This document shows positions 8,254 to 26,406 of a DNA stretch of 58,499 bases, piece by piece. The first letter of the stretch is position 1, and every line of letters starts with the position of its first letter. Where the stretch lies: positions 1 through 58,499 of the forward strand of contig JAQTZZ010000026.1 in assembly GCA_028687545.1 (NCBI GenBank), given 5' to 3'. The position numbers were made by a program, and so were the translations under genes. The stretch is from Candidatus Wallbacteria bacterium (lineage in GTDB: Bacteria > Muiribacteriota > JAQTZZ01). Below the pieces are notes generated by a model, which saw only the letters and a program-made list of their open reading frames with translations, ran no database searches and was not told the origin of the DNA.

Positions 8254-8280
8254 AAATTCATTTAGGGCTGGTTACATTTT

Positions 8281-8359
8281 AAACCCCGCTACGTCCTAAA
8301 GGACTTCGGGGGTTAAGAAGCTGTAAAATCTTCGCGGGAGCTCAGGTTTAACAGCTTCT
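8281..8359 (-). terminator. Two adjacent hairpins downstream of the four-repeat protein gene
   Basis: The arm ACAGCTTCT (8351-8359), which overlaps the stop codon of the minus-strand gene, pairs perfectly with AGAAGCTGT (8315-8323) across a long loop. Next to it is a nested hairpin (AACCCCG 8281-8287 with CGGGGGTT 8306-8313, inner GTCC/GGAC). Together they probably form the 3' end of the minus-strand transcript. No strong U-tract follows, so the terminator call is tentative. Confidence 0.45.
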
Positions 8360-9467: not shown

Positions 9468-9527
9468 ACTGCCCTCCTGTCTCCACTTGTTGCCCCTCTG
9501 TTTCGAGAGGTTTTATACTCTGATTTA

Positions 9528-9555
9528 ATTATAGACGGAAGCTCAGATTTTTCAA
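9528..9555 (-). promoter_or_regulatory. Predicted promoter of the four-repeat exported protein
   Basis: On the minus strand there is TTGAAA (complement of 9550-9555), a 16-bp spacer and a consensus TATAAT (complement of 9528-9533), giving a leader of about 50 nt. Confidence 0.6.
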
Positions 9556-9582
9556 GGACTTTTCCGGTAATACTCAGGTTGA

Positions 9583-10362
9583 TTATTTGCTGGTTTCTGT
9601 TTCATTTAGACTGGGAGCGTTTTTAGACTGCCATTTGTAAACAAGGGAATGAAAAATAGTCTGATATTTCACCACATCCCACTTTTTCAGGTCTGACTGG
9701 ATGAAACCCTGGCACAGCAAGGCGGATTCCAGCCCAGGCATGTGATAAGCTCCCCATGGCACTACAACGATCCTGTGAGTCTTCAGTCCGGCTGCGATCT
9801 GTTCCAGAAGATGGATGTTCCTTTTCCCTACGATGTCGGTTTTGAAAAGCTCGAATTCTTTGTCGTCAGCACCTTGGGAGAACATTTCTTTCAGTGACTC
9901 CTGGCTGGTAAATCCCTGGCTGTGGATCCTGGCACATTTATTAATGAATTTTACTGTTCCGGGTGAAAGATCGGACATATCAAGATCAGCATACTTGCAT
10001 TCAATCTCCCTGGAAGCAGGGTTGAAATAGTCGGATTGAGTATCAATACCCAGAAAGTCGGCGAATTTCTGATAATTAAGGTGATACTTAAGGAGCTTCT
10101 TCCTGTCAGTGACTCCTTCCATCAGCACAATGGATGATTCAGCCGGAAAAGAGGCAGCCAGTTTCTCATAAAAGTTCCGCTCCCCGATATGCATCATGGC
10201 AACCAGATATACTTCCCTGGAATCATTGGAATATTTCTTCTGGGTGAGCTCCATCGAAGAGGCACTCAGTTCGATAAATCCTGCAGAGGCGTGTGACACC
10301 CCTTGGGACAGTCCGATCAGGATATAGCCTGCCAGGAAAGGGATGACTACGAAAATATTCAT
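9583..10362 (-). CDS. TraB/GumN-like (Tiki superfamily) protein with N-terminal membrane/signal segment
   Basis: 259 residues. The first ~28 residues are hydrophobic and act as a signal or membrane anchor. The rest matches the TraB/GumN/PrgY fold: VAMMHIGERNFY near the start (the HIG block), VLMEGVTD, then DLDMSDL, a KRNIHLL segment and a late VVVPWGAYHMPGLE. The spaced Glu, Asn-His and the GxxHMPG histidine are the conserved positions of this proposed metalloprotease-like superfamily. Its bacterial substrate is unknown. It is third in a minus-strand run after the cysteine desulfurase-like and membrane-protein genes (66-nt gap). No RBS is obvious before the ATG. Confidence 0.75.
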   Translation of the reverse strand: MNIFVVIPFLAGYILIGLSQGVSHASAGFIELSASSMELTQKKYSNDSREVYLVAMMHIGERNFYEKLAASFPAESSIVLMEGVTDRKKLLKYHLNYQKFADFLGIDTQSDYFNPASREIECKYADLDMSDLSPGTVKFINKCARIHSQGFTSQESLKEMFSQGADDKEFELFKTDIVGKRNIHLLEQIAAGLKTHRIVVVPWGAYHMPGLESALLCQGFIQSDLKKWDVVKYQTIFHSLVYKWQSKNAPSLNETETSK

Positions 10363-10428
10363 GAATAGATAGGAGACAGTATGCTTCCAGGAAAAAAAAC
10401 TGGGGTTGAGACCTGATTCAGTCGCAAA

Positions 10429-10809
10429 CTAGCTTTGATTCAGGTTCGATTTCCGTAAAATCCGCAAGCTGTTCCACCCGATCAGGAACTGGGCCAGCGA
10501 AAAAAACAGATCTAATTTGGGAAGTTCGGCTGAAGCGATGAAAGCTGCCGGTAGCTGGACAATAGTGGATAAGAAGAGAAAAAGAATCTGGGGAACAATC
10601 AGTTTCAGCGGGAAAACACAGGTTACGCATAAAACCAGGTAAAGGAGCAGAATTTCCAGAGCCGCGATGAACGTTGTCACAATTCTGATCTGCTGCAGGG
10701 TCTGCAGTTGTCCGATAAAGCATAACGCTGAGTCGGATAGGGAAATGACAGCGTCCAAAGCGAATGTGTAAAGAAAGATGTTAAGCAGTATGGCGGAGAT
10801 TTTTTTCAA
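10429..10809 (-). CDS. Small polytopic membrane protein, unknown function
   Basis: 126 residues with about four hydrophobic stretches (roughly 5-30, 38-62, 65-85 and 88-112), predicting an inner-membrane protein. I recognise no family. It starts at a TTG (10807-10809). GAGG 4 nt upstream overlaps the stop codon of the desulfurase-like gene just 6 nt away, so translation is likely coupled. Its link to the neighbouring enzyme is unknown. Confidence 0.65.
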   Translation of the reverse strand: MKKISAILLNIFLYTFALDAVISLSDSALCFIGQLQTLQQIRIVTTFIAALEILLLYLVLCVTCVFPLKLIVPQILFLFLSTIVQLPAAFIASAELPKLDLFFSLAQFLIGWNSLRILRKSNLNQS

Positions 10810-10815
10810 GTTGCC

Positions 10816-11940
10816 TCACAGTCCGGCGAATTGTGATGCTTTGTTGAAATAGCCAAGGCTGAAGCGCACGGTGCCTGAATCGAGAGTGCCCAGAAACTCG
10901 TGTGCATATGGAGCGCAATGAGCTCCTGGCCGCACTACTATGTTGAATTCGCGGTCCAGGAATTTTGCGTAATCAGTGCTGCTTCCTTTCTGGGGAATGC
11001 AGGAAACAATCCCTGCCGAAATTTCATCAGGGATTTCCACAATTTCAAGATCAGGAAGCCTGGTCAGGAAATTCTTGAGCTGATGCATGGTTTTGCGTTC
11101 ATGCTCAAATATTTTTGGCGGCAGATGCTTCTGCAGCCATTTAAGGGAAGCATGCAGGCCTGAAATGGACAGGATGTTTGGGCTGCCTGCTTCGTATCTG
11201 GTCGGGATCACGTCAGGGCAGAATTCCTGTTCCGAATGCGTGCCTGTACCGCCGAAATAAAGCGGCCTGATCCTGATCTCTGAGTTATAGATGTATCCGG
11301 CAATTCCAAAAGGACCATAAAGAGTCTTGTGGCCTGCGAAAACGTAAAAATCAATCCCTGCTTTCACGACATTCACGTCAATGAGCCCTGCGCCCTGAGT
11401 GCCGTCTACCAGCAGGACAGACCCGTGTTTTCTGGCAAGCGCGGCCACTGCTTCCACAGGGCAGATCAAGCCCAGTACATTGCTGACATGCGTGCAGCAG
11501 ATCAGCCTGGGTTTGTCTTCTATCAGCAATTTTTCCAGATTTTTCAGGTCGAACCTGTAATCCCTGTTCACAGGAATCAGCTTTATCTTAATGTCAAACT
11601 CTTGTCTGATACGATGCAGAGGCCGCAGCACGGCGTTGTGTTCAAAAGGAGATACATAAACCACATCATTTTTTCTCCAGCTGAGGCCCTGGATGATCGT
11701 GTTCAGGCAGATCGTGGCAGAAGGCATGAATACGATTTTATCGGGAGCCGGGCCTCCCAGCAGGATGGCCAGCATCGAGCGCGTTTCAAGGATCATGTCG
11801 CTCAAAGCTGCCAGAGCCGAGTGACCGCTCCTGCCTGCATTGAACCCCCTGGTGCGGTAATTGTGGTCCATTGATTTATAGACAATTTCAGGCTTTGGAA
11901 ATGTAGTGGAAGCATTGTCCAGATAAAGCAGTTTTTTCAT
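10816..11940 (-). CDS. Cysteine desulfurase family PLP enzyme (class V aminotransferase fold)
   Basis: A 374-residue PLP enzyme of the SufS/CsdA/selenocysteine-lyase type. The PLP lysine is Lys205 in FAGHKTLYGPFG, the cofactor-stacking His is His101 in SPFEHNAV, and the aspartate lies in LLVDGTQGAG. The catalytic cysteine is Cys342 in RPGAHCAPYAH, a short rigid loop typical of group II desulfurases. It should release sulfur from cysteine as an enzyme persulfide. No suf/isc scaffold genes are adjacent, so it may supply sulfur for another pathway. I start at the ATG 11938-11940 (MKKLLYLDNASTT), which fits the family N-terminus and has AGAGG upstream. The open frame extends 26 codons further. 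Confidence 0.9.
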   Translation of the reverse strand: MKKLLYLDNASTTFPKPEIVYKSMDHNYRTRGFNAGRSGHSALAALSDMILETRSMLAILLGGPAPDKIVFMPSATICLNTIIQGLSWRKNDVVYVSPFEHNAVLRPLHRIRQEFDIKIKLIPVNRDYRFDLKNLEKLLIEDKPRLICCTHVSNVLGLICPVEAVAALARKHGSVLLVDGTQGAGLIDVNVVKAGIDFYVFAGHKTLYGPFGIAGYIYNSEIRIRPLYFGGTGTHSEQEFCPDVIPTRYEAGSPNILSISGLHASLKWLQKHLPPKIFEHERKTMHQLKNFLTRLPDLEIVEIPDEISAGIVSCIPQKGSSTDYAKFLDREFNIVVRPGAHCAPYAHEFLGTLDSGTVRFSLGYFNKASQFAGL

Positions 11941-12113
11941 TTTAAGCCTCTGATATCTTTTCAAAGTTTTCGGCAGAAACATTGGATTGGTAAGAAATTG
12001 CGATCTATTATTAATCAAGCTGGAAATTATTTTACAGCTTTACATCTCTTTAGATATGATTTGATTTCGGATGAAATTCAGGAAACCATTAACTCAGCTT
12101 GTTTCCAGCTGCG

Positions 12114-12142
12114 TTGCTATTTTTTACATAAAACGGCATAAT
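12114..12142 (+). promoter_or_regulatory. Predicted promoter of the response regulator gene
   Basis: TTGCTA (12114-12119), a 17-bp spacer and CATAAT (12137-12142), about 37 bp before the RBS of the response regulator gene. Confidence 0.4.
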
Positions 12143-12185
12143 GAATGCTATAACCACAATAATTTTTAAAGTGCAGGGGGAATAC

Positions 12186-12566
12186 ATGAAGAAAAAAGTA
12201 TTGATCATTGATGACGACCAGGACATACTGGATTTGGTCAAGCAGGAACTGCAGCGCGATTTTGAAGTAATACCGCGGAGCTTCTGCCAGGACATACGCG
12301 AAGCCTGTGAACTTTATCAACCCGATCTTGTGCTGATTGACCTCATGCTGCCTGGCAGTGACGGATACGAACTCTGCAGTAAAATCCGAAAATTCAACCG
12401 GGACCTTCCAGTGATCCTGGTGACAGGCATAGAACTGAAAGCCCTGAAGAACAATTACTCAATCATCGAAGCCAACGATTACCTGCTTAAGCCTTTTCAG
12501 GCGAAAGTACTCAGGGAAAAAGTGGAAAAAGCGCTGAAATTTTCTGAGAGATCAGCTGAAGCCTAA
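12186..12566 (+). CDS. Single-domain response regulator (CheY-like receiver)
   Basis: 126 residues, a stand-alone receiver domain with no output domain. The acidic pocket (Asp9-Asp10-Asp11), phospho-acceptor Asp52 in LIDLMLPG, switch Thr80 in LVTG and Lys102 in LLKPF are all intact, so phosphorylation is expected. A cognate histidine kinase is not in the window. Partners could be kinases, chemotaxis-like components or phosphorelays. The start is set by a G-rich RBS (AGGGGGA) 4-5 nt before the ATG at 12186; the open frame extends 15 codons further upstream without an RBS. It is convergent with the ABC substrate-binding protein gene. Confidence 0.93.
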   Translation: MKKKVLIIDDDQDILDLVKQELQRDFEVIPRSFCQDIREACELYQPDLVLIDLMLPGSDGYELCSKIRKFNRDLPVILVTGIELKALKNNYSIIEANDYLLKPFQAKVLREKVEKALKFSERSAEA

Positions 12567-12591
12567 ATCAGTAATTCTTTTGCAATAACCA

Positions 12592-14238
12592 CTAGTTTCC
12601 ATCTGAGTACTTCTGCTGGGATTCAGGCACGAACCAGCGCCACATCGGAGTCAGACCTCCGGCCATGGTTGCGCTGATCCCGTGGAATCGCTTGTTCACA
12701 GCAAAAAACGACTGCTGCATTCCGAGGAAAGTGCAGGGCTGATCCTCGTGCAGCAATCTGTGCAAAGCGTGATATATCTTCTGCCGTTCAGCTTTGTCAA
12801 AAATCTCCCTGCCGCGTTCCAGCAGACTGTCCACCTCAGGATTTGAGTAACGGGCCAGATTGTCGCCTTTTTTCAGTTTGGGGTCAGGAATCTCGCATGA
12901 ATGCCAGACGCTGTAATTTGAGTCAGGTTCAGTCGGGTCGATCCTGTTGCCGATCATGATCACGTCAAAATCACCCTGACCGGCTTTGTCCATCAATCCA
13001 CCCCAGGTTGTGACTGAAAGTTCCGTCGTAGCCCCGACAGTGGACCAGTAATTCATGACCATTCCCGGTACGAGCATTGCCACAGGGTCATTGCCGAATC
13101 TGACGATCGAAAGCCTCAATTCCTTTGTGCCGCGCTCCAGTGTTCCATCGCCGTCAGTGTCTGACCAGCCTGCCGCTGATAGCAGGTTAGTCGCTTCCCG
13201 CGTAGAATACGGCCATGGTTCTATAGTCTTGTCATAGGCCCAGGAATCCGGCAGGCACGGTCCTGAGGTGTTTGTTCCGTATCCATGGAGCACTTCTCTG
13301 ACAAGAGCTTCGCGGTCGATCGCCTGTGTGAGTGCCCGGCGCACCCGCCTGTCAGATAGGATTTCCCTGGAATTGTTATACAAAAGAAAATTGGCTTTAT
13401 TGGTCGAAGTGTAGACATTGATTTTGGATTCCAGTTCCCCGCCCTTGACCTGATTCACATACTGATCCCAAGTCAGCGGGAAAACGTCGATCTCCCCGCG
13501 TTTGAACATCAGGAAAGCCTGCGAACGGTCAGGAATGATGCGGGTGATTAGGCGGTCGACAAAGGGTCTGCCTGAAAAATATTCTTGGTTGGCTGCCAGA
13601 ACCACCTGCTCATTTTTCAGATACCTCACAAAGCGGAAAGGTCCTGTTCCAATCGGATTCAGATTGAATGATGACGTATTCAGATCTTCGGTCAGATAAA
13701 TATGCCTGGCTATGATCTGAAATCCGCAATAATTCAGGGCAGGGGCAAACGGTTTTTTCAGCTTGAAGCGCAGAGAATGGCTTGTCAGGACTTCCAGGGT
13801 TTCGAAGCAACCGGTCATTTTCTGGTCTGCCGGCCGTCCGACTGGGTTCATGATCAGGTCATAGGTGAACCTCACATCTTCTGCAGTGAAATCCACTCCG
13901 TCGTGCCATTTGATTCCACTTTTCAGTTCGAAAGTGATCTGCAGGCCGTCAGCTGAGATTTCCCAGCTGGAAGCGAGGTCAGGCTCGAGCTCACAATTCT
14001 GATTGTAACTGGTCAGGCTGCTGTAGATCAGGCTGCAAAAGCTCTGGGAGATTGATTCCCTGGCCAGCAGCGGGTTAAAAGTGACAGGTGCGGCCTGATA
14101 GAAATTCACGATCGTGTCGCCACAGGCAGGGGAGGAATCCAACTCTGCTTCGATTGTGGGGACCTTTACTTGTTCCGCTGCAATTGACGTACTGTTCCAG
14201 AACAGGAAAAACAGAGCAGATAAAATGCAAAATTTCAA
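12592..14238 (-). CDS. ABC transporter substrate-binding protein, peptide/nickel (SBP_bac_5) family
   Basis: 548 residues with a signal peptide (about 1-20) and the extracytoplasmic family 5 fold. Signs are SFCSLIYSSLTSYNQNCELEPDLASSWEIS split over the N-lobe, KWHDGVDFTAEDVRFTYD, GTGPFRFVRY, and RRVRRALTQAIDREALV near the hinge. It should bind oligopeptides or similar ligands and hand them to a DppBC/OppBC-type permease, but no permease or ATPase gene is next to it, so it is an orphan here. I start at the TTG 14236-14238 because GGAGGG lies 4 nt upstream. The longer frame begins inside that RBS. It may be a lipoprotein, but no clear lipobox is seen. Confidence 0.9.
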   Translation of the reverse strand: MKFCILSALFFLFWNSTSIAAEQVKVPTIEAELDSSPACGDTIVNFYQAAPVTFNPLLARESISQSFCSLIYSSLTSYNQNCELEPDLASSWEISADGLQITFELKSGIKWHDGVDFTAEDVRFTYDLIMNPVGRPADQKMTGCFETLEVLTSHSLRFKLKKPFAPALNYCGFQIIARHIYLTEDLNTSSFNLNPIGTGPFRFVRYLKNEQVVLAANQEYFSGRPFVDRLITRIIPDRSQAFLMFKRGEIDVFPLTWDQYVNQVKGGELESKINVYTSTNKANFLLYNNSREILSDRRVRRALTQAIDREALVREVLHGYGTNTSGPCLPDSWAYDKTIEPWPYSTREATNLLSAAGWSDTDGDGTLERGTKELRLSIVRFGNDPVAMLVPGMVMNYWSTVGATTELSVTTWGGLMDKAGQGDFDVIMIGNRIDPTEPDSNYSVWHSCEIPDPKLKKGDNLARYSNPEVDSLLERGREIFDKAERQKIYHALHRLLHEDQPCTFLGMQQSFFAVNKRFHGISATMAGGLTPMWRWFVPESQQKYSDGN

Positions 14239-14269: not shown

Positions 14270-14560
14270 TTAAAGAACTTCATAGTAAGCTTCAATGATT
14301 TTGCGGAATTTATCTGAAATAGACTGCCAGTCCAGCACATCCACCCTGACCGGCAGGTCTGATTCTTCAAAAGCTTCCTTCAGGAGGCGTAGTGTATCCC
14401 GCTCCAAAGGATTTGGACTTACAATGGCCAGGTCAAGATCAGAATAAGCCTTGGCAGTCCTGGTCACTCTGGAACCGAAGGCGCGTACCTCGCAGTCAGG
14501 CACATGTTCGGCCAGGATGCGTTTGACTGTATCCAGATGGCCGGGGTTGAGGTCAATCAT
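14270..14560 (-). CDS. Minimal nucleotidyltransferase (MNT) domain antitoxin-type protein
   Basis: 96 residues of the polymerase-beta superfamily (HI0073/MntA group). AFGSRVTRTAKAYSDLDLAIV holds the catalytic Gly29-Ser30 and the Asp41-x-Asp43 metal pair. In characterised MNT/HEPN modules the MNT protein AMPylates and neutralises the HEPN toxin. Its ATG (14558-14560) overlaps the last 8 bases of the upstream HEPN gene, so the two are translationally coupled. That choice of start is better than the upstream TTG at 14581. Confidence 0.88.
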   Translation of the reverse strand: MIDLNPGHLDTVKRILAEHVPDCEVRAFGSRVTRTAKAYSDLDLAIVSPNPLERDTLRLLKEAFEESDLPVRVDVLDWQSISDKFRKIIEAYYEVL

Positions 14561-14975
14561 TCCTGGTTTCCAATGCTTCAAGTAACTTTACTGCGTCTCC
14601 GGCGAATTCATGCGCTGCCTGATAGACGAGTTCAGCGGTTTCGGCCTCATAGGTGTGGGAAGTCTGGTTTCTGGCTTCATGATGCCGCATCCACTGTTCC
14701 ACATCAGTAATCAGCCGGTGTTCAGCTGCGTGCCTGAACAGTTCCCGACGTGCGACTCCGTCGAAAGCCGAGGCGCTGACATTCATGTCCAGCCAGCGCT
14801 TAATGAATTTCCAGCAGAGCTCGTAGGTGAACTCGAAATGCTGGATCACTCCGGATTTGATCGCATTGCGGGTTACTTCATCCATGGTTTTCATGAATTC
14901 AGCATCATCGCTTTTTGCCAGCACATCGCTCAATGCTGTCACAGCTTTTCTCAGGCTCTCCAGTTCAAGCGGCAT
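14553..14975 (-). CDS. HEPN-domain protein, HI0074 family (nucleotidyltransferase substrate-binding protein)
   Basis: 140 residues, all-helical. It is the partner of the MNT protein encoded immediately downstream with overlapping ends. The RNase-type HEPN motif R-x4-H is present (Arg102 to His107 in EARNQTSHTY), so it may be an active RNase toxin rather than only a binding partner. The YELCWKFIKRWL helix matches the HI0074 family. The start ATG (14973-14975) has GGAGA 6 nt upstream. It sits at the edge of a cluster of toxin-like genes and a restriction system. Confidence 0.87.
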   Translation of the reverse strand: MPLELESLRKAVTALSDVLAKSDDAEFMKTMDEVTRNAIKSGVIQHFEFTYELCWKFIKRWLDMNVSASAFDGVARRELFRHAAEHRLITDVEQWMRHHEARNQTSHTYEAETAELVYQAAHEFAGDAVKLLEALETRND

Positions 14976-15162: not shown

Positions 15163-15321
15163 CTAAAGTACTTTTCCCTTCTTTTTTCGTGCATTGATCA
15201 GCATTTTCCTGAACTCTGCAAGCTGGGACAGCACTTCCAGGCGCTTGATAGGTGCAAGTGAAGACAGCTGTATATTGTGGCCGTCAAAATCCTGATGAAT
15301 CTCCTTGCCTTGTCTTTTCAC
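15163..15321 (-). CDS. Small 52-residue protein coupled to a nucleotidyltransferase gene
   Basis: This GTG-started frame begins inside the stop codon of the upstream nucleotidyltransferase gene (GTGA overlap, 15318-15321) and ends at TAG 15163-15165. The protein begins VKRQGKEIHQDF and ends in a basic tail (INARKKKGKVL). The middle (LAPIKRLEVLSQLAEF) predicts an amphipathic helix. The 4-bp overlap is the classic sign of translational coupling, so it is probably real and acts with the nucleotidyltransferase, perhaps as toxin or antitoxin partner. That role is inference; I do not recognise the family. Confidence 0.65.
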   Translation of the reverse strand: MKRQGKEIHQDFDGHNIQLSSLAPIKRLEVLSQLAEFRKMLINARKKKGKVL

Positions 15322-15812
15322 GTCTGCTTTCGAATCCTTTCCAGAATTTCGATGTCCGCAAGGTCCTGAGGCCGTCCTGCGGCTTTTTTCGCTTTGATCA
15401 GATGGCCTATGGAGGAGATGTAGACCCTGATTCCGCCCAGCTCAATTGTTTCGGATTGGGTTTTCAGCTCTTCATAGGGAATCGGATAGGTAAGGAATAT
15501 ATCCAGCTGCGCGATGCCTCGCTCATCCAGGAAAGTCATCACAAGCGCACCTTTCAGATCAATCCATTCACGCCTTTTATCCGGATCAGCGATGTCCTCA
15601 ACAGAAACCGGTGCTCTGGGTTTGAACTTCATTCTCTTCAATGCAGCCGCGAGGCGGGTGAAATTTCCGTTTTCCGGATTGACCATCAAGTCAAGATCGT
15701 AAGTGATGCGGTCGGAACCATGAAGAACAGCGGCAACTCCTCCGCAGATCACGAATTCCACATTTTCCCGGATCAGGTTTTCAAGCAATTTGAAGAAAAA
15801 ATTACCTTTCAT
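15318..15812 (-). CDS. AbiEii-like / DUF6036-type nucleotidyltransferase
   Basis: 164 residues with a nucleotidyltransferase fold: CGGVAAVLHGSDR (residues 23-35) followed by TYDLDLMV with Asp39-x-Asp41. This is the order seen in AbiEii/AbiGii-like and related stand-alone NTases, several of which are toxins that modify tRNA or partner proteins. A late SSIGHLIKAKKAAGR segment and a DLADIEILE end also fit that group. A 52-residue gene overlaps its 3' end. It lies between an MNT/HEPN pair and the type I restriction genes, suggesting a defence or addiction role. The RBS (AAAGG) is weak. Confidence 0.78.
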   Translation of the reverse strand: MKGNFFFKLLENLIRENVEFVICGGVAAVLHGSDRITYDLDLMVNPENGNFTRLAAALKRMKFKPRAPVSVEDIADPDKRREWIDLKGALVMTFLDERGIAQLDIFLTYPIPYEELKTQSETIELGGIRVYISSIGHLIKAKKAAGRPQDLADIEILERIRKQT

Positions 15813-15910: not shown

Positions 15911-17347
15911 TCAAATCCCCTTAAATTCCCCTAATGCCGACTCCAGATTCTCCATGATTTCCCTTGCAATCACATCAGGTTCCGGCAGGTTTTCCATGTC
16001 TTCCAGGCTGTCGTCCTTGAGCCAGAAAATATCGAGGTTGAATTTGTCGCGGCTGGAGATTTCGTCGTAGGTAAAACACTTGAATCGCTCGGTTTCCTTT
16101 CTATCAAAGGGATTGTCCGGATTATAACAATTAATGAAATCCTGCAGGTCTTCGTATTTCAGGGGATTGGTTTTCAAAGTGAAATGCCTGTTTGTGCGCA
16201 GATCGTAAATCCAGACCTTTTCTGTCCAGGGCTTTTCGCCAGCTTCCTTTTTGTCAAAGAAAATCACATTGGCTTTGACTCCTTGGGCATAGAAAACTCC
16301 GGTCGGTAGACGCAGAAGCGTATGGACATTGCATTGCGACAAAAGGTTTTTGCGGACTGATTCTCCAGCACCGCCTTCAAACAGGACATTGTCTGGTACT
16401 ACCACAGCGGCTTTTCCGTTGGTTTTGAGTATGGATTTAATATGCTGCACGAAATTGAGCTGCTTGTTGGAAGTGGTGGCCCAGAAATCCTGGCGTTCGT
16501 AGATCAGGGCTTCCTTGTTTTCCTTGCCTTCCTCATTGACGATTGTGGAACTGCTCTTCTTTCCGAAAGGCGGATTAGTGAGGATGAAATCGAATCTGTC
16601 GCCCGGGTCTGATGCCAGCGCATCGCTGACCAGAACCGGACTTTCATCACCTCCAAGGCCGTGCAGGTAAAGGTTCATCACGCAGAGCCTGGCTGTGGCA
16701 TCCACGATTTCCCAGCCCTTGAATGTATTGAATTTGAGGAACTGCTTCTGTTCCCTGTCCAGTCTGGTATTTTTCTCAAGATACTGGCAGGCAGCCAGAA
16801 AAAAACCGCCTGTTCCGCAGGCAGGATCGCAAATCGTCAGACCTGGCTGCGGTTTAAGCGCTTCAACCATGGCCCTGATCAAAGGCCGCGGAGTGAAATA
16901 CTGGCCTGCCCCGCTTTTGGTGTCTTCAGCGTTTTTCTGCAGCAGTCCTTCGTATATCTCGCCTTTTACATCAATATCAAGCGCCATCCAGCTCTCTGAC
17001 TCGATATGCTTGATCAACCGCTTGAGCTTGGCCGGATCCTGGATTTTGTTCTGGGATTTACGGAAAATCACGCCCAGCAATCCCTTGGATTTCCCAAGGT
17101 TTTCCAGGATATGTCTGTAATGAATTTCCAGCTCATCGCCGTCTTTCGCTACAAGGCTCATCCAGTCGAATCCGACGGGAATGTTTGAAACCCGGTTGAA
17201 TGGCGGCCTGGTCTGCTCGTCAGCCATTTTCAGAAACAAAAGATAAGTCAGCTGCTCGACATAGTCACCGTAGCTGACCCCATCGTCGCGCAGCACATTG
17301 CAGTAATTCCAGAGCCGCTGGACTATGGCAGAGGATTCATTGGCCAT
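15911..17347 (-). CDS. hsdM: Type I restriction-modification system DNA methyltransferase (M) subunit
   Basis: 478 residues. A helical N-terminal domain (about 1-140) precedes the gamma-class N6-adenine methyltransferase with the AdoMet motif DPACGTGGF (174-182) and the catalytic NPPF (258-261). With HsdS it methylates adenine in a bipartite site; with HsdR added it forms the nuclease. The start ATG has GAGGG upstream. It is the last gene of the minus-strand RM locus (hsdR, cassette, hsdS, PIN pair, hsdM). Both motifs are intact, so methylation activity is expected. Confidence 0.95.
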   Translation of the reverse strand: MANESSAIVQRLWNYCNVLRDDGVSYGDYVEQLTYLLFLKMADEQTRPPFNRVSNIPVGFDWMSLVAKDGDELEIHYRHILENLGKSKGLLGVIFRKSQNKIQDPAKLKRLIKHIESESWMALDIDVKGEIYEGLLQKNAEDTKSGAGQYFTPRPLIRAMVEALKPQPGLTICDPACGTGGFFLAACQYLEKNTRLDREQKQFLKFNTFKGWEIVDATARLCVMNLYLHGLGGDESPVLVSDALASDPGDRFDFILTNPPFGKKSSSTIVNEEGKENKEALIYERQDFWATTSNKQLNFVQHIKSILKTNGKAAVVVPDNVLFEGGAGESVRKNLLSQCNVHTLLRLPTGVFYAQGVKANVIFFDKKEAGEKPWTEKVWIYDLRTNRHFTLKTNPLKYEDLQDFINCYNPDNPFDRKETERFKCFTYDEISSRDKFNLDIFWLKDDSLEDMENLPEPDVIAREIMENLESALGEFKGI

Positions 17348-17400: not shown

Positions 17401-17796
17401 TTACAAGCCGACAAAATCTTTATAATTAACAACCTTTATTCCCTGATAAGGATTCATGTTCAGAAGATCCTTGTCTCCTGTAACAATCAACTCAGCTCCG
17501 CCATTGACTGCAATTTCCAGTATGAAATTGTCCTTTTTATCCGGGCAGTCAAAAACTCTCTTTTCAATTACGACAGTTTCTGAAAGCCTGGTAATCAAGG
17601 CCAGCATCTCAAACACTTTTTCCCGTGAAAAATACTGGGCGAATTTCGGTCTGGTGACCACTCTGATGATTTCATGAATCTGCTCATCTGAAGTCAGAAT
17701 CTGAATCTTCCTGCTGACAAGCTTTTCTTCAAGTCCACCAAGAATCCTTCCAATCAGGAAACTGATCCAGACATTGGTATCGATTACGATCTTCAT
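17401..17796 (-). CDS. PIN-domain toxin (VapC-like, COG1569 type)
   Basis: 131 residues. The PIN nuclease acids are present: Asp6 in VIDTNVW, Glu42 in QIHEI, Asp89 in CPDKKDNFILE and Asp108 in VTGDKDLL. These bind Mg2+ for RNA cleavage in VapC toxins. Its start overlaps the upstream 70-residue antitoxin-like gene by 4 bp (17793-17796). It lies between hsdS and hsdM in the same orientation, so it may stabilise the RM locus or sense its failure. Confidence 0.9.
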   Translation of the reverse strand: MKIVIDTNVWISFLIGRILGGLEEKLVSRKIQILTSDEQIHEIIRVVTRPKFAQYFSREKVFEMLALITRLSETVVIEKRVFDCPDKKDNFILEIAVNGGAELIVTGDKDLLNMNPYQGIKVVNYKDFVGL

Positions 17797-18074: not shown

Positions 18075-19550
18075 TCAAACACTCCTATTTTTCCGTTTTT
18101 TCTTTTCCGTTTCCAGCTTTTCCTTCTCTTTTCTGATTCTCTCCAAAAGTTTCTCAGCAGGCTCGTCGTCCGGGTCCTGCGGCACAAGCCTGCCTTCAAA
18201 CGCCTTCTTCAAAATACTCTGCCGCAGCCTCTCAGCCTGCCTGAGGCTTTCCTCAACAGTCTTCTCCAATTTCTCAATTACTGAAAACCGCCGCTCGATT
18301 TCCTGGACGATTTGGTGTTGTTCTTTCAATCCACACACAGGTATATCAATATCGCGACAAATTTCGAGCGTCAAATTAAATTGGCCAGCTGTAGCTTTTG
18401 ATTTTTTCATCATTGATTTTATTGTAGTTTCCGACTGGAAATAAAACATAAGAAATTTCTTATCTAAGTTATCATTGACTCTAAATCTTGCTATTGCTTG
18501 ATTAATATTCCATTCTTGAAAATCGTCTGGAACTAAAGACACTTTCCCTAGCGGCGGTCCAACAATATTGATCAGTATATCACCGGGTATCACTATAGAT
18601 CGAGCTAGAAAACCAGTATGGGTTTCTTTTGTTACGAATGTAGGATTAACAGAAAAATCTAAACTTCCATCAAATGTCAGATTATAAACCTTTATAAAAG
18701 GTACTTCGCCGACACCTTGAGACATTTGGTTTTTAGAGGGTGTAGTGCCTTTTGTGATAAATTCGGAAATGAATTCCGCTTTTACACATAGCCAATTTTT
18801 AGGAATTGAAAGCAACCCAGCAATTTCATGGGAAGAATTGCGCCATACAGAACAATTCTTGTTTTTGTCATTCTTCTTTATTCGATCCAATAAAATCTCT
18901 GGGGATTCAAGATCCTTTTTATGTTCTTCCCTCCACTTCTCAGTCAATTTCCCTTCAAATGCAGCTTTCAACACAGACTGTCGGTATCTCTTCAACTGCT
19001 TCCTGATCTTTTTCAACTCCTCAACCCCAGCATCCAGCCGCGTGAAAAGCTCTTCGATTTTGGCAACAATGCGATGCTGCTCGGGGAGGGGAGGAAGAGG
19101 TAATTGACAAGTTTTTAAAAAATCTGCTGGAACTCTCAGTTGTCCAGCAGTACCTTTCATGCTTTTTTTTGCTAAGTTACGGAATTTCTCTTGGATAAAA
19201 TAGTAAAAATAAAATTTTCTACATACAATTTCCGGCATCCTAATTACATGGAATTCAGTTGAGCCGAAACCAATTCCATTTTTTAAATGCAAAGCGATTG
19301 CAAGTTTTCCATTTTCCATGCATGGAGTGATTTTGGCAAACAAAATATCTCCATCAATGAACTTTACATAGCCTTTTTTGACTTCAGAATACTTACGAAT
19401 TTCAAGTCGGGATATCTTCCCACTAAGTTCTTCTAAATGTTTCATCGGTAGAAATGAAACTTCAATATCATCAGTTAAATTTTCGAATGGAAGGTCTGGG
19501 TTTATTGCTGCAATGCTCTCGATGCTAACAGTTGACCACTTAAATACCAA
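18075..19550 (-). CDS. hsdS: Type I restriction-modification system specificity (S) subunit
   Basis: 491 residues with the HsdS layout. There is a first target recognition domain (about 1-150), then a conserved helix (PLPPLPEQHRIVAKIEELFTRL near 151-172), a second variable domain (about 225-395) and a second conserved helix (LKEQHQIVQEIERRF). The C-terminus is a lysine-rich coiled coil. It recognises the two halves of the target site and sets specificity for HsdM and HsdR. The apparent start is TTG (19548-19550) with only a weak GGGG upstream, so a few N-terminal residues are uncertain. The variable domains are more A+T-rich than the conserved helices, as usual for shuffled TRDs. Confidence 0.93.
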   Translation of the reverse strand: MVFKWSTVSIESIAAINPDLPFENLTDDIEVSFLPMKHLEELSGKISRLEIRKYSEVKKGYVKFIDGDILFAKITPCMENGKLAIALHLKNGIGFGSTEFHVIRMPEIVCRKFYFYYFIQEKFRNLAKKSMKGTAGQLRVPADFLKTCQLPLPPLPEQHRIVAKIEELFTRLDAGVEELKKIRKQLKRYRQSVLKAAFEGKLTEKWREEHKKDLESPEILLDRIKKNDKNKNCSVWRNSSHEIAGLLSIPKNWLCVKAEFISEFITKGTTPSKNQMSQGVGEVPFIKVYNLTFDGSLDFSVNPTFVTKETHTGFLARSIVIPGDILINIVGPPLGKVSLVPDDFQEWNINQAIARFRVNDNLDKKFLMFYFQSETTIKSMMKKSKATAGQFNLTLEICRDIDIPVCGLKEQHQIVQEIERRFSVIEKLEKTVEESLRQAERLRQSILKKAFEGRLVPQDPDDEPAEKLLERIRKEKEKLETEKKKRKNRSV

Positions 19551-19609: not shown

Positions 19610-21322
19610 TTACTCTTCTTCTATTTCTCCAGATGAAGTCATCCTTTTACGCACCACACTCCTATTTCTACAGCTGACTTCATCTGACTGATTTATTATC
19701 AAAGGCTTGTTTTTGTAGTTTTCTTTTGTGATTGTGTAATATCCCAATACATTTTTTATCTTTACATTTTTCGATGCTTTTTCTTTCCCTTTTCCGCAGA
19801 GAGCTTCGAGTAGGGTTTTCCTTTCAGAGGGATCTAATTTTAAGTAATCTTGTTTCCATGCAGCAATGAATCCTTTTTTTTCAAACAAAAATCTATGTTT
19901 GATGAAGTCCGCTGGCATTGTTAAAATCATCAAATACTCTTCAATATTCTCGCCATATGCCTTGTAAAAAAAATCCTTTTCCTTAGCAACTACACCTTTT
20001 GTTACATTCAAAATAAGATTAATTGCTGATAAATACTTTTTATTCCAATTTATACCAATAAAATCACGGTCTATGCGGCCGATAGGTGCATATTTCATTG
20101 GAAAAGAAAAGGCTTGAATGTCATCTTTTTCTTTGTATAAATCGGTATTATTATGAAGTCGATTCCACAAATCCTCTGGTTTGTCTTTATAGTTGTAGAG
20201 TATGTAATTTGAAAAGTACTTTACTCCATGTTTATATGCTGTGTTAAATGCATTTTGGTAATTTTCAGTACTTTCGATATTGTCATAAGCTAACCTAAAT
20301 GGTTTTATTGGTAATTTACTAAGAGTTTTCATCTTTTTTTCATTTATCAACCTAGCATCGATACCCTGATTAAAATCGATGTATCTCTGCAAAGGTTGTT
20401 TGTACCTATAGATATCGATGATTTTGTTAAGAATTTCCTGGGATTCAAGCATTATTTCAAGCTTATTATCCCCGCTTTGAATCTTGAGAAGAATGTTTTT
20501 ATAAATTACTTGGTTATCTCGACCTTGAATTTTTGTTGAAAACCTTATCAAAAAATCAATAATGTCATCAATTTGCTTAGCAAAAGGATCTCCATCATTT
20601 TTCCTTCGTAAAACTTTGTTTACCAACAATTCTAGGGGATGTGGATATACAAAATTGGGCCTCTGGTTGATAAATCCTAGTCTGTTTAAATCTTTGACAA
20701 TCTGTGAAAGTTTACGTGAGTAAAGTATGTTGTTATCCATTATCATCACATTTCGCATATCACCGTATTTTTCACGTATTGAAGTGATTTGTTTTATGAC
20801 ATTATTTGTATCTTTGAATTCACTTTCTAAAACAGGGACTGCGCAAAATTCACATCTCCGCGGACAACCTCTGGTAGTATGAATGAAAAAGTTATCTTTG
20901 ACTGGATATTGATAGATAATATCATCTAGAATATCATAATCTAACGATAATTCATCGATGTTCACGTTATCAGAAAAACCGATCATTGATGAATTCGTAA
21001 GCTGACCACGAATGACGTTGTCGGTGCATAATTCTTTTTTAAATTTTCTGTATAAAATCGTAGAAGCTATCCCTCCTATATAAACACTATCTTTATGAAG
21101 ATAGTTCAAATAATGCTTTATAGTTTCGATAGTTATCTCATAATAAAATGTGAATAATGTTGTGATGTAAACTCTATCAGTCCTACTTATCAGTGTATAA
21201 GGTGCTTTACCTTTATAAAATTCTACTTTATCTCCTCGATTCTTATGATACGTTGCCAATTTCATAAGGCCCAGTGGAGGAAACTTGTTAACATAATCTG
21301 GTTCAACTAATAAAACATTCAT
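19610..21322 (-). CDS. Radical SAM protein with N-terminal B12-binding-like Rossmann domain, cassette gene 3
   Basis: 570 residues. Residues 1-130 look like the N-terminal domain of B12-binding radical SAM enzymes (NVLLVEPDYVNKFPPLGL, then SVYIGGIAS) but lack the DxHxxG cobalamin ligand. The radical SAM cluster motif CPRRCEFC (CxxxCxxC, Cys153/157/160) follows, in a TIM-barrel-like region to about 420, then a helical C-terminus. It should cleave AdoMet to make a 5'-deoxyadenosyl radical; the substrate is unknown. It begins a few nt after the GHKL ATPase gene. The ATG at 21320-21322 is preferred; a TTG two codons earlier is possible. It is strongly A+T-rich compared with flanking genes. Confidence 0.82.
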   Translation of the reverse strand: MNVLLVEPDYVNKFPPLGLMKLATYHKNRGDKVEFYKGKAPYTLISRTDRVYITTLFTFYYEITIETIKHYLNYLHKDSVYIGGIASTILYRKFKKELCTDNVIRGQLTNSSMIGFSDNVNIDELSLDYDILDDIIYQYPVKDNFFIHTTRGCPRRCEFCAVPVLESEFKDTNNVIKQITSIREKYGDMRNVMIMDNNILYSRKLSQIVKDLNRLGFINQRPNFVYPHPLELLVNKVLRRKNDGDPFAKQIDDIIDFLIRFSTKIQGRDNQVIYKNILLKIQSGDNKLEIMLESQEILNKIIDIYRYKQPLQRYIDFNQGIDARLINEKKMKTLSKLPIKPFRLAYDNIESTENYQNAFNTAYKHGVKYFSNYILYNYKDKPEDLWNRLHNNTDLYKEKDDIQAFSFPMKYAPIGRIDRDFIGINWNKKYLSAINLILNVTKGVVAKEKDFFYKAYGENIEEYLMILTMPADFIKHRFLFEKKGFIAAWKQDYLKLDPSERKTLLEALCGKGKEKASKNVKIKNVLGYYTITKENYKNKPLIINQSDEVSCRNRSVVRKRMTSSGEIEEE

Positions 21323-21330
21323 ACACAAAT

Positions 21331-22821
21331 CTACTTTTTTGAATAGGATTTTTTTATATAAGCACGTAACTCTAAAAACAACTCTAAGGTATTTTTCTTT
21401 CTGAAAAAATCCTTAATGATCACCATGAGATTATCATATGCTCTTTTCATTGGCATTGACTCACTCGGCATATCTTCGTCAGCAATCTGAAAGACATTTT
21501 CTCTTCTCTTTTTTGGATCAATTTTAAAAAAACCACTATGATCAATGTTTGCACTAATCAGATCTGTCAAAGCATGTTTAAATTTATTCTTATTCTCTTC
21601 ATGAGGTCCATGATAGTACCGAGAAGCGCTATACCTACATTTATGTAACTTTTCCATGAAATCGACGATAAGATTCCGTAAATATAGAGATTTTTCATCA
21701 ATTCTAAACCATTCTCTTCGTGCATTATCTTTTAACTCTGGGTAGTTTATTAATAACTCACCACAGGTTGCTTTCATAGCTTGGGTTAATTCTCTGGATG
21801 TAGAAACATATTTATTACTATTCACACAAAGCTCAACGAATTTATCATTACTACCCATCAATACATTTTTCGATCTTACTAAAATGCCATAGTCGCTAGT
21901 ATGTTTTTTGACTGCTTCCAGATCGTGATTAAATGTGAACCAAAGAATACCCATTTTATCTCCAGGCCTACCATTCGCCCGTTGCTTGCCTCTAATTTCC
22001 CAAAAATTAATACCTGCCTCTAAAACGTGTTCGTCAGAGTAGTTTTTGGATAATTCTTTACCATTGAGTACAATAGAATACATGAAATCGTTTAGGTCCT
22101 CGTCCATAAATTCATTATATTTATCAATAATTTTTTTCGCTGACTTGAAATCACTTTTGTATCGCAATGGAAGCATTTTCATTAATCTCTGCTCAAACAA
22201 ACCTATCCTTGTTTTTTCTTCGCCTAACAATTCTTCAACGTCTAAAGAATAATCAATGATCTCGACAGTAAAATAATGATCATTATTACTTTGATTTTTT
22301 TCAGTGCTAAAACTAATGATTCTTCGTACTATGTCATCAAATGAATCTTTAGAATTCGAGTTTAGCAACTCCTTGTATTTATCCCCCTGCCATTCACAAA
22401 TATATCTTTCGGACACCCCTTCGGGTTTGTTTACAAACCTAAGTTTTTTACAGAAAGGCATTGCAGAAATTCTTCCAATTCCTCGAAAACCTATATATTT
22501 TGTCGGCTGGGAATTTTTATCGGATTCACCAAATGAAAGCATTTTTTTATTAAACTCTTGCACGATTAGTAGAGGAGACACATCAGGTTTTGGATATATT
22601 CCATATCCATTATCTCTTACAATAATGCTTCTTTTTTTTCTATCAACATCAATATTCACTTGGAATTCGCTTAACTCTGGCTTGCCATTTTCTTGAATTG
22701 CTTTTTTATAAGCATCTACAGAATTTTGCACATACTCTCTAAACAAAATAATTGGGTCTTCATAAAGGGCTGAAGTAATAGTTTCTAAGAGATTTTTACC
22801 AATTAATATTCGTTGATTCAT
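21331..22821 (-). CDS. GHKL (HSP90/MORC-like) ATPase, cassette gene 2
   Basis: 496 residues. The Bergerat ATP-binding site is complete. The N-box is FREYVQNSVDAY (Glu29, Asn33, Asp36), the G1 box is VRDNGYGI (Asp70-Asn71-Gly72-x-Gly74), and the G2 box is GFRGIGRIS (Gly111-Gly116). The opening, with SALYEDPIILFREYVQN, is HSP90/MORC-like, but the rest (about 200-496) does not look like HtpG middle or client domains. An ATP-driven dimer clamp is likely. It overlaps the cyclase-like gene by 26 bp and abuts the radical SAM gene, so all three are coupled. The RBS is AAGGAA. Confidence 0.85.
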   Translation of the reverse strand: MNQRILIGKNLLETITSALYEDPIILFREYVQNSVDAYKKAIQENGKPELSEFQVNIDVDRKKRSIIVRDNGYGIYPKPDVSPLLIVQEFNKKMLSFGESDKNSQPTKYIGFRGIGRISAMPFCKKLRFVNKPEGVSERYICEWQGDKYKELLNSNSKDSFDDIVRRIISFSTEKNQSNNDHYFTVEIIDYSLDVEELLGEEKTRIGLFEQRLMKMLPLRYKSDFKSAKKIIDKYNEFMDEDLNDFMYSIVLNGKELSKNYSDEHVLEAGINFWEIRGKQRANGRPGDKMGILWFTFNHDLEAVKKHTSDYGILVRSKNVLMGSNDKFVELCVNSNKYVSTSRELTQAMKATCGELLINYPELKDNARREWFRIDEKSLYLRNLIVDFMEKLHKCRYSASRYYHGPHEENKNKFKHALTDLISANIDHSGFFKIDPKKRRENVFQIADEDMPSESMPMKRAYDNLMVIIKDFFRKKNTLELFLELRAYIKKSYSKK

Positions 22822-23599
22822 GCCATATTCCTTTCATTAAAAAGTATTGAATCGTCCACCCATATTTTTGTTTTATTGCATGATCATTTTTCTTTTTAAA
22901 TTCAGCATAACGCTCCGATAAAAATCTAAATACCTTTTCGCGTTTTAAGAATAATATTATCTCCTCTTTACTCTTTTTGTTTTTCTCTTCAGATGTAACA
23001 AAATGACCAAGATAGTCAATGATTTTTTCGTTATCCGTTGTCAAAATAATCTCACTTGAATTAGGGTGCTTTTCGCAGAATTTATCAAGGAAATTGTTAT
23101 GAATAATAATTCGTGGGTATATAGCACTTTTTTGTTCAAGTTTAAACGCATCAATGTAAGCAGGGCCAATTATATCTTTTCCAGCATCAGTTACTTTTAC
23201 TTTACCATAGGTTACTGCACCACGGAGCTGAAACTGGCACTCCACCAAAATTCTCATTTGAATAGTAGCCAGTAAAGATACAAGATCCAGCATGTGTTTT
23301 TCCGAGCATGTAAAAATGAATGAATCCGAAAAATGTGTTAGTATGAAGTCAGGATCTAATGCAATTGATTTTGTTTCAATATCAATAATCCCTTTGATTT
23401 TCTTCATCTTCTGTATTGCTGCCGAATCATCTTTTTCATTGTAAACAAGGTCTTTCATAGCAAGAAGGTCTAGAAAAGCGACATTTTTAAAATCATACTT
23501 CTCCAATTCCTGTAAGTTTGGAGAAGTCTTTTTTTCTCCCTTATCAATCCATTCATCAATACTGAGATTATTGATTTTCAAATCATCATGCTTTTCCAT
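22796..23599 (-). CDS. Class III nucleotide cyclase-like protein, cassette gene 1
   Basis: 267 residues. Two metal-binding aspartates sit in the expected strands: Asp44 in AFLDLLAMKDLV and Asp92 in HFSDSFIF, 48 residues apart, as in class III adenylate/guanylate cyclases. RGAVTYG (126-132), GPAYIDAFKLE (145-155) and YPRI (161-164) continue the pattern seen in single-domain bacterial cyclase-like proteins, including the kind used in Pycsar-type antiphage signalling. The product nucleotide is not predictable. The C-terminal third is lysine-rich and helical. It is the first gene of the three-gene cassette, 50 bp after hsdR, with a TATAAT in that gap. The family call rests on motifs and is my inference. 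Confidence 0.72.
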   Translation of the reverse strand: MEKHDDLKINNLSIDEWIDKGEKKTSPNLQELEKYDFKNVAFLDLLAMKDLVYNEKDDSAAIQKMKKIKGIIDIETKSIALDPDFILTHFSDSFIFTCSEKHMLDLVSLLATIQMRILVECQFQLRGAVTYGKVKVTDAGKDIIGPAYIDAFKLEQKSAIYPRIIIHNNFLDKFCEKHPNSSEIILTTDNEKIIDYLGHFVTSEEKNKKSKEEIILFLKREKVFRFLSERYAEFKKKNDHAIKQKYGWTIQYFLMKGIWHESTNINW

Positions 23600-23649: not shown

Positions 23650-26406
23650 TCACCCCACCAGCACTTTATTCAATTCTTCAAGAATCCCGTTCAACCTTTC
23701 CCCAAACACCTGATAAACCTTCATCGCTCCGCCACGGGCCTGGAAGGGGGTCAGCTCGAAGTCGTCCATTTTTATGGATAAGGATGTGGCTACATGTTCT
23801 TTGATCAGCTTGAGCCATTCCAGTTCTGTTTCGCTGAATTTCACGCCTTTTTCGGCCTGGATTTTCAGCCAGTCTGCGAAACGCTCTTCCACAGTTTCGG
23901 AAAAAGGGCGGAGTACATTTTCATCGCCTGCTGTGAAACGTAAAAGGGAAATGATGTCTGCCAGCAAACGGTGAGCGCTTGCGCCCTGGACTCTGGATCT
24001 GTCGAGCTGTTCATAAGCGTGCCAGACTTTGTCTGCTGTCAGGAAATATGGGGGATTCTGGATCGAGGCTGCCAGGTTTTTGATTTCGTCTTCTGCGATC
24101 TGCTTCTGAGTGTATGGCTTTCCAAAAATTATGCTGTGGGCTGCTAGTTCGTCCTTGTGATCTTCGATATACTGCTTGAAAGTGCCGATGATCTTTTCGG
24201 ATTTTTCCTTGGCATTGGCATCGAATCCGGCTGATATCACCTCATCCTGGCTGACTGTGTCAATGATCTGCTCCTTGCTGCGCCTGATTTCTATCAAACG
24301 CTCTCGGAACTTCGGATCATCGAAAACCCGGCAGGATTCTTCCTTGATTTCATCTGCAGCTTCTTTGATCTGCTGCTCGTCAGGCACAGGGACTTTGAAT
24401 TTTTCTTTGGCCCTTTCCTCATGTTTATCAGGGTCAATCGCATCAAGCAGTGAATTGGCGATATCGCTGATCGTTTTGCCGTTTGTCAGTGTTTTGATTT
24501 CTTCATGCTCGGCTTTTTCCAGCCTGCGCATCAGTTTCATCAGCCTGCAGGCCAGAGTTGATAATGTGTCTTCGTCCCTGTTGCCGAGAGCCACGCTCTG
24601 AATCAGGGCTTCAAAAGGTACAGTTTTTTTCCGTTCCAGGATCGAGGAATCGTTTTTCGCACTTTCGCAGACTCCTACAGCGTCCACGATCACGAAACCG
24701 TCCTTGATGCCTGTGCCTGGAGTGACTGAGCGCATGTCAGTGGGATTGATGATCCTGGTGCCGCGGCCTTTCATCTGCTCGAACAAAAGGCTTGATCTCA
24801 CATCGCGCATAAAGATCAGGCATTCCAGAGGCCGGATGTCTGTTCCTGTGGAAATCATGTCTACAGTCACGGCGATTCTGGGGTCATACGAATTCCTGAA
24901 CTTGCTGATCAGGTCTTCAGGCTTTTCGCCTGTTGTCTTGTATGTGATCTTTTTGCAGAAGTCATTGCCTTTGCCGAATACCTCGCGGATGATTCCGACA
25001 ATGTCCTCTGCGTGAGAATCGTCCTTGGCAAAGATCAGGGTTTTGGGGACTACACCGCTGCGGTCAGGAAAAATCTCTGTAAACATTTTGTCTCTGAAAG
25101 TGCAGATGATTGTCCTGATCTGGTCTTTGGATACCACGCTCGTATCAAGCTGGTTTGACTTGTATTCCAGATCATCGTCAAGCTGTTCCCAGCGCACTTT
25201 ACGCGTCAGCCGATCCCTTTTATCAATATAAAGCCCGGCTTCAACAGTGCTCCCTTGTTCAGTGATCCTGGTTTTGATCCTGTAGACTTCATATCCTACA
25301 TTCACGCCGTCAGCTACAGCCCGCTCGTGAGGATATTCGGACACGATCTTGGAATTGAAGAAACCGATGGTCTGCTTTGAGGGAGTGGCAGTCATGCCGA
25401 TGATAAAGGCATCGAAGTATTCCAGTGCCTGACGCCAGACATTGTAGATCGAACGGTGGCATTCGTCAGTGACTATGAAATCAAAGGTTTCGATCGGGAT
25501 CGCCGGATTATAAACAACTTCCACAGGCGTTCTTTCCAGGCTGTTGAAAAACAGCGAATCTTCCTCCAGGCTCTCATCAAAAACAGGCTCGCCCTTAAGC
25601 ATGGAAAATAGTCTCTGGATGGTAGTGATACAAACTTTGCAGGCATCGTCGATTGTGTTGCCTGTCATGCGCTGCACATTGTAAAGCTCAGTGAATTTAC
25701 GGCCATCGTCAGGAGTCCTGAACTGCTGGAATTCGTTGAGTGTCTGCCTGCCGAGATTATTACGATCTACAAGAAACAGCACTCTCTTGGCTTTGGCAAA
25801 TTTGATCAGCCTGTAGACGAAATTGACGGCAGTATAAGTCTTGCCGCTGCCTGTAGCCATCTGGATCAATGCTCTGGGATGATTTTCGGCCAAGGCCAGC
25901 TCAAGATTCTCAATGGCAGGAATCTGCGGTTTCCAGAGATGATCTTTGATCAGTGGAGGCAGTTCTTTCAGCCTTGCTCTGAGAGTGCTCGCATCCAATG
26001 CCCATTTTTTCAGGGTTTCAGGCTTGTGAAAATTGAATACCCTCCTGGAGCGCGAATCAGGATCTCTGATGTCCCGGAAAAAGATCTCTGTGCCGTTACT
26101 TTCATAATGGAAAGGCAGTGGAATTCCATAATTGGGAATGTTGCCAGGGAATGATTCGATATAAATAGAGGATTGCTCAGAAACTCCGCTTAAGGTATGG
26201 CCTTCTTTTTTTGCCTCAATGATGCCGATGGCTTTACGGTCAACAAACAGGACATAATCGGCTTCAAGCTGATTTTTCAGGGGAAAGTATCCGACTGCAA
26301 CACCTGGTGAGGCCCCAAGATTAATGGATCGATAATCCTGTACTTTCCAGCCTGCTTTTTCCAGGTTCTGATCGATAATAATCCGTACTTTATCTTCAGG
26401 TCCCAT
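23650..26406 (-). CDS. hsdR: Type I restriction endonuclease (R) subunit
   Basis: 918 residues. The N-terminal PD-(D/E)xK nuclease is intact (Asp50 in EADYVLF; Glu64-Ala-Lys66 in GIIEAKK). The SF2 translocase has Walker A ATGSGKT (184-190) and a DECH box (314-317), plus downstream helicase motifs (TATPSKQT, STGTDIRP, QMKGRGTRI). A helical C-terminal region follows that docks on HsdM/HsdS. The complex cuts unmodified DNA after ATP-driven translocation. The start has AGAGG upstream. It leads the RM locus, but hsdS and hsdM come 4-8 kb later because of inserted genes. Confidence 0.95.
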   Translation of the reverse strand: MGPEDKVRIIIDQNLEKAGWKVQDYRSINLGASPGVAVGYFPLKNQLEADYVLFVDRKAIGIIEAKKEGHTLSGVSEQSSIYIESFPGNIPNYGIPLPFHYESNGTEIFFRDIRDPDSRSRRVFNFHKPETLKKWALDASTLRARLKELPPLIKDHLWKPQIPAIENLELALAENHPRALIQMATGSGKTYTAVNFVYRLIKFAKAKRVLFLVDRNNLGRQTLNEFQQFRTPDDGRKFTELYNVQRMTGNTIDDACKVCITTIQRLFSMLKGEPVFDESLEEDSLFFNSLERTPVEVVYNPAIPIETFDFIVTDECHRSIYNVWRQALEYFDAFIIGMTATPSKQTIGFFNSKIVSEYPHERAVADGVNVGYEVYRIKTRITEQGSTVEAGLYIDKRDRLTRKVRWEQLDDDLEYKSNQLDTSVVSKDQIRTIICTFRDKMFTEIFPDRSGVVPKTLIFAKDDSHAEDIVGIIREVFGKGNDFCKKITYKTTGEKPEDLISKFRNSYDPRIAVTVDMISTGTDIRPLECLIFMRDVRSSLLFEQMKGRGTRIINPTDMRSVTPGTGIKDGFVIVDAVGVCESAKNDSSILERKKTVPFEALIQSVALGNRDEDTLSTLACRLMKLMRRLEKAEHEEIKTLTNGKTISDIANSLLDAIDPDKHEERAKEKFKVPVPDEQQIKEAADEIKEESCRVFDDPKFRERLIEIRRSKEQIIDTVSQDEVISAGFDANAKEKSEKIIGTFKQYIEDHKDELAAHSIIFGKPYTQKQIAEDEIKNLAASIQNPPYFLTADKVWHAYEQLDRSRVQGASAHRLLADIISLLRFTAGDENVLRPFSETVEERFADWLKIQAEKGVKFSETELEWLKLIKEHVATSLSIKMDDFELTPFQARGGAMKVYQVFGERLNGILEELNKVLVG

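Follow-up and report, generated by a model that had tools for sequence, protein, structure and literature searches.

GHKL ATPases of the MORC and paraMORC type occur in restriction-modification (R-M) and helicase-nuclease operons, as described by Iyer (2008, PMC2292703), in a paper that gives the S5-domain motif specific to MORC and in which a word search for “radical” returns nothing; the Pycsar system, for its part, associates a class III cyclase, PycC, with PycTM or PycTIR. Here, we describe a cassette of three genes (hereafter, the trio) carried by a contig of Candidatus Wallbacteria bacterium (JAQTZZ010000026.1), the whole analysed stretch of 58,499 nucleotides being called the window. 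The trio codes, in this order, for a protein resembling class III nucleotide cyclases (gene 1), an Hsp90/HtpG-like GHKL ATPase (gene 2), and a radical S-adenosylmethionine (SAM) enzyme (gene 3, rSAM), and it lies within a type I R-M locus. The rSAM and the Hsp90-type GHKL form a co-inherited pair, which combines with at least five kinds of DNA-restriction machines.

So far as we could check, no named system joins an rSAM with an Hsp90-type GHKL in DNA restriction, and the newness of the pair is provisional. PADLOC, candidate systems included, offers no model that covers any of the three window proteins or the GHKL protein of locus L083, while several of the partners described below do have models. 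Word searches of papers on MORC GHKLs, Dnd, BREX, YprA/DISARM, and archaeal dark matter gave no description of the pair, and neither did further literature searches, most subscription papers lying outside their coverage. The first-pass annotation of the window, whose author knew of no described system with these three genes, still holds on this point, both for PADLOC and for the searched literature.

Recurrence and Mobility of the Trio

An rSAM alignment, run against 84,980 genomes, yielded 270 relatives, 80 loci of which were retained, and a viral scan added more. The complete trio, in the same order and on the same strand, was found in four further loci: in Omnitrophota (L024), in Nitrospirae (L023, where a stretch of N in the assembled sequence breaks gene 1), in Oscillospiraceae (L025), and on a viral contig where an integrase-like gene adjoins it (L103). 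Two cut copies, on a viral contig (L184) and in a genome of the same phylum as L024 (L207), show gene 1 and the GHKL gene before the contig ends. Because the same genes recur in this way, the trio is a real unit and not a product of chance; the first-pass annotation had taken the three genes for one system, and they are indeed found together in other genomes, some of them in R-M loci. Gene 1 adjoins the GHKL gene in all seven copies of the gene 1 subfamily, spacing as well as order being conserved, and the rSAMs of the five complete trios are monophyletic (support 1.00); the cyclase-like third gene defines this one branch of the rSAM family. The source genome holds a single copy. Nitrospirota genomes also gave weak rSAM matches (E above about 1e-13), which proved to be radical SAM proteins of a generic kind and were left out of the count.

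The three genes of this branch have entered R-M loci together, both of type I and of the type III-like kind. An R-M locus surrounds or adjoins the trio in three of the seven copies (window, L024, and L184); the insertion in R-M loci put forward at first is, thus, true of more than one copy and does not extend to the other four. L024 has Res (ResIII) and Mod (N6_N4_Mtase) genes followed by the trio, L184 has Mod, then Res, then the trio, and both trios stand directly behind these type III-like genes. Between the two loci, gene 1 is 86% and the GHKL 80% identical, against 46% for Mod and 36% for Res; since the trio is so much better conserved than its neighbours, the cassette must have moved between R-M hosts. 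Its GC (guanine and cytosine) content in the window is 32% versus 48–49% in hsdR and hsdM, and it is lower than that of the surroundings in all six loci compared (window, L024, L184, L023, L103, and, mildly, L025). Furthermore, in L243, which belongs to the same phylum as the window, a homologous hsdR (45% identity) is directly followed by hsdS, with no trio. Given the low GC of the trio in the six loci and this direct junction, the trio behaves as mobile cargo.

The rSAM–GHKL Pair and Its Partners

Of 94 distinct rSAM loci, 69 have a GHKL gene directly beside the rSAM gene and on its strand. As a test independent of this count, a collection of 72,556 plasmids was queried by tblastn, once with each protein; the rSAM (E 1e-8) and the GHKL (E 1e-15) retrieved the identical 12 records. 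Neighbour clustering placed most pairs in other DNA-restriction operons, where the cyclase-like gene is missing. Among the partners of the rSAM family, we found HerA (profile match to the PDB, 6.5e-54) alongside a NurA-like protein; an SNF2 helicase with ParB-like proteins and a 140-aa protein bearing a PD-(D/E)xK nuclease-like motif (PD...GEAK); a DndB/DpdB-like protein (5e-15), whose gene immediately precedes the pair in many relatives; and DrmA (4e-163) with DrmB (1e-56), of the DISARM type, in five loci (L034, L088, L091, L092, and L095). On plasmid pNL1 of Novosphingobium aromaticivorans DSM 12444, there is a DndB-like/rSAM/GHKL operon, and in Marinitoga camini virus 1, a short rSAM stands beside genes annotated as HerA and as a Rad50/Mre11-associated single-stranded exonuclease, the latter read as NurA-type. 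The neighbours of this one uncharacterised enzyme pair are many unrelated DNA-restriction machines, and its distribution covers many phyla as well as plasmids and viral contigs.

Some further observations concern these families. In the five DrmA-DrmB operons, a NERD-helicase gene is followed by the rSAM, with or without a GHKL, and no methylase was seen. The viral loci L112-L182 hold short phage rSAMs (median 307 aa) related to phrog_9298, with PP-loop PAPS-reductase-like genes nearby in 17 of 69 loci and DNA-methylase-like genes in 9. The plasmid matches of gene 1 were distant cyclase-like proteins with no GHKL or rSAM neighbours and were discarded.

It is conceivable that R-M loci merely offer a safe landing place to a trio whose function is independent of restriction and concerns, for example, the maintenance of plasmids or prophages; four copies (L025, L103, L023, and L207) do lie away from R-M genes, and related pairs are found on plasmids. 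We consider this unlikely, as the trio has been found in type I as well as type III-like R-M loci, and the pair shares what seem to be the same operons with DISARM, HerA-NurA, and SNF2/nuclease genes, a pattern that chance landing would not repeat.

Features of the Three Proteins

The CxxxCxxC radical SAM motif first noticed in gene 3 was confirmed: its cysteines (C155, C159, and C162) are invariant in 44 rSAM homologues, and this cluster motif lies in an rSAM barrel according to both Pfam and the fold. The AlphaFold2 model is confident (predicted local distance difference test, pLDDT, 92.8; predicted TM-score 0.88) and shows a B12-binding-like domain followed by the barrel, although the Pfam B12-binding match of the N-terminal Rossmann domain is below the cut-off (E 0.079). 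The nearest folds in the PDB are MgmA (3.7e-9), TsrM, MiaB, and AprD4, with RimO also among the nearest, at about 11–14% identity, while the sequence profile has no meaningful match in the PDB. These enzymes act on tRNA (MiaB), on proteins (RimO and MgmA), or on small molecules (TsrM and AprD4), so that the fold does not decide the substrate. Such a span also agrees with a different role, in which the rSAM is the effector: once the restriction machine has sensed an invasion, the GHKL-rSAM would, like viperin, produce a small antiviral molecule, or else alter RNA or protein and, thereby, halt growth. The partner pattern would be the same. The tight link to DndB/DpdB-like, HerA-NurA, and DISARM genes is, however, less expected of a free metabolite maker, and no window protein matches the PADLOC viperin models; we, therefore, regard this role as rather unlikely. 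If true, it would reveal a new defence principle using an Hsp90-type ATPase.

Gene 2 does carry the complete ATPase site attributed to it at first, the N-box, DNGxG, and GFRGxGR motifs being present and invariant in the aligned homologues. Its best named match is HtpG (NCBIfam model, 6e-10, residues 9-121), and no MORC model of Pfam matches it. Six GHKL homologues share E29, N33, D70-N-G-x-G, G111-F-R-G-x-G-R, and N366-x-R-R without exception; these comprise the N, G1, and G2 motifs of an Hsp90-type ATP site and a conserved arginine in the following domain, which we take to be the Hsp90-type catalytic one.

Gene 1 was more difficult to place. It has no match in Pfam or PADLOC and no significant one in NCBIfam, and sequence searches of the PDB with the protein and its family gave nothing meaningful; one member of the wider family, used as a query, found no relatives in the viral collection or in phage records. 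Its AlphaFold2 model, of medium quality (pLDDT 75), nevertheless retrieves class III cyclases as 47 of its 50 best PDB fold matches, with Foldseek probabilities up to 1.0 but E-values starting only at 0.014 and moderate TM-scores; among them is the Pycsar cyclic UMP synthase 7r65. The two aspartates pointed out in the first-pass annotation, D44 and D92, are present and, together with R126 and P162-R163, invariant across a 14-member family; in the model, D44 stands at the end of strand 1 of the cyclase core and D92 in the following hairpin, at the places that hold metal in class III enzymes.

Both the fold and the position of these aspartates would suit Pycsar-like signalling, in which a cyclic nucleotide made by gene 1 switches on the GHKL and rSAM proteins, as had been proposed. 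The alignment of the 14 members does not show the conserved catalytic Asn and Arg of class III enzymes: the trio group has GPAYI-x-A-F/Y-K in place of GxxVNxAAR, with Ile at the Asn position and Lys, Arg, or another residue at the Arg position, and both positions vary in the wider family. No effector with a cyclic-nucleotide-binding domain (transmembrane or TIR) was found among the scanned trio, R-M, and flanking genes of the window, PADLOC reports no Pycsar match, and gene 1 is missing from most rSAM–GHKL pairs. Control of the ATPase and the radical enzyme by a signal nucleotide is, thus, the part of the original proposal that is not supported, such signalling being unlikely; gene 1 is most likely a nucleotide- or metal-binding regulator whose cyclase activity is doubtful. 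A cyclase-like gene is also found in L211 (2329-7748), where, together with the gene for a 1532-aa protein that bears a NACHT C-terminal domain (NCAB2), it comes after a type I hsdS-hsdM.

A Possible Mechanism

The explanation that we favour, if tentatively, is that the trio serves defence as a mobile cassette associated with R-M, whose rSAM, gated by the GHKL and regulated through gene 1, would modify DNA or something bound to it, the chemistry being inferred. The GHKL dimer would bind and hydrolyse ATP and act as a clamp presenting the substrate to the rSAM; the latter, with its [4Fe-4S] cluster and SAM, and possibly cobalamin, would carry out a radical modification such as the transfer of a methyl or similar group. 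Its target would most likely be DNA, because DNA processing is the sole feature common to such varied partners, and the resulting mark, of self or of the invader, could be read by the neighbouring nuclease or helicase. The cyclase-like protein would most likely be a nucleotide-sensing or regulatory subunit that kept its metal site and probably lost ordinary cyclase catalysis. The first proposal for these genes is supported in part, as to a recurring unit with no named match, its presence in R-M loci more than once, and the cyclase fold of gene 1, but not as to the nucleotide signal.

Several points weigh against this explanation. No DNA-binding domain was recognised in the three trio proteins, and type I and type III loci already own a methylase, an extra modifier not being obviously needed. 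In addition, 25 of the 94 rSAM loci have no adjacent GHKL, the four trios mentioned above are not beside R-M genes, and the NurA-like protein next to HerA (E 0.022) is weak alone, its assignment relying mainly on position.

A stronger form of the favoured explanation, which we hold to be doubtful, would see here a class of DNA modification not recognised before: the Hsp90-type GHKL, acting as a clamp, would bring DNA to an rSAM that installs a new mark, and this unit would have been plugged into at least five restriction machineries (type I R-M, type III-like R-M, DISARM-type, HerA-NurA, and SNF2/ParB/nuclease). Were radical DNA marking true, it would constitute an epigenetic and anti-phage mechanism of a new kind, from which new nucleic-acid chemistry could also be drawn.

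Organization of the Window Locus

The genes of the host locus are listed in Table 1. Pfam matches identify hsdR, hsdM, and hsdS, all on one strand, as a type I R-M system, with the order hsdR (upstream), trio, hsdS, PIN toxin gene, and hsdM. The first-pass annotation had placed the trio correctly, including its minus strand, its hsdR and hsdS flanks, and the 26-bp overlap between gene 1 and the GHKL gene. The gap of a few nucleotides that it gave before the rSAM gene is 2 nt if the TTG start at 21328 is used; the true start is likely the ATG at 21322, which fits the homologues better and leaves 8 nt.

Table 1. Genes of the trio and of its host R-M locus (positions in the window).
Feature	Positions	Strand	Remarks
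Gene 1, class III nucleotide-cyclase-like	22796-23599	-	267 aa; putative metal aspartates D44, D92
Gene 2, GHKL ATPase, Hsp90/HtpG-like	21331-22821	-	496 aa; PF13589 4e-7
Gene 3, rSAM, N-terminal Rossmann domain, B12-binding-like	19610-21328	-	572 aa; CxxxCxxC at 155/159/162; PF04055 4.5e-7
hsdR, type I restriction subunit, host locus	23650-26406	-	ResIII, EcoEI_R_C, HSDR_N
hsdS, type I specificity subunit, host locus	18075-19550	-	Methylase_S 8e-22
hsdM, type I methylase, host locus	15911-17347	-	N6_Mtase 2e-72, HsdM_N
PIN toxin gene, second cargo, between hsdS and hsdM	17401-17796	-	PIN_3 3e-17

A short open reading frame upstream of the PIN toxin gene could be its antitoxin. A DUF6036 nucleotidyltransferase-like gene lies 3' of hsdM (15318-15812, minus strand) and may be another R-M cargo; in L243, several other genes stand between hsdS and hsdM (7000-12700), a further cargo site. 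The window also holds a Nucleotidyltransferase and NTase_sub_bind pair of the MNT-HEPN toxin-antitoxin type (14270-14975, minus strand) and, on the plus strand, a single open frame of at least 4731 aa (44307-58499) that runs past the window end, in a region (45-58 kb) that had looked free of open reading frames.

Comparison with Known Systems

The trio shares with Pycsar a class III cyclase-type fold and a defence context, but its gene 1 does not conserve the Asn and Arg positions and is accompanied by a GHKL and an rSAM, and neither a cyclic-nucleotide effector among the scanned genes nor a PADLOC match was found. The rSAM has the Rossmann and rSAM architecture and the CxxxCxxC motif of B12-binding-type enzymes (MgmA, TsrM, MiaB/RimO, and AprD4), from which it differs by its low identity, its usual GHKL partner, and its DNA-restriction setting. 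Some of its relatives share an operon with DrmA and DrmB, as in DISARM, except that no methylase was seen there and that a NERD-helicase gene precedes the rSAM; the window has no drm genes, and neither drmA nor drmB stands beside its trio. In the same way, the DndB/DpdB-like protein directly upstream of many pairs recalls Dpd and Dnd, whereas the neighbourhoods L015-L019 have no annotated DpdA, DndC, or related modification enzyme and carry an rSAM instead. Finally, a GHKL ATPase encoded in R-M or helicase-nuclease operons is what the trio has in common with MORC and paraMORC (PMC2292703), the GHKL described here differing from them by its best match, HtpG/Hsp90, and by its constant partner, an rSAM.

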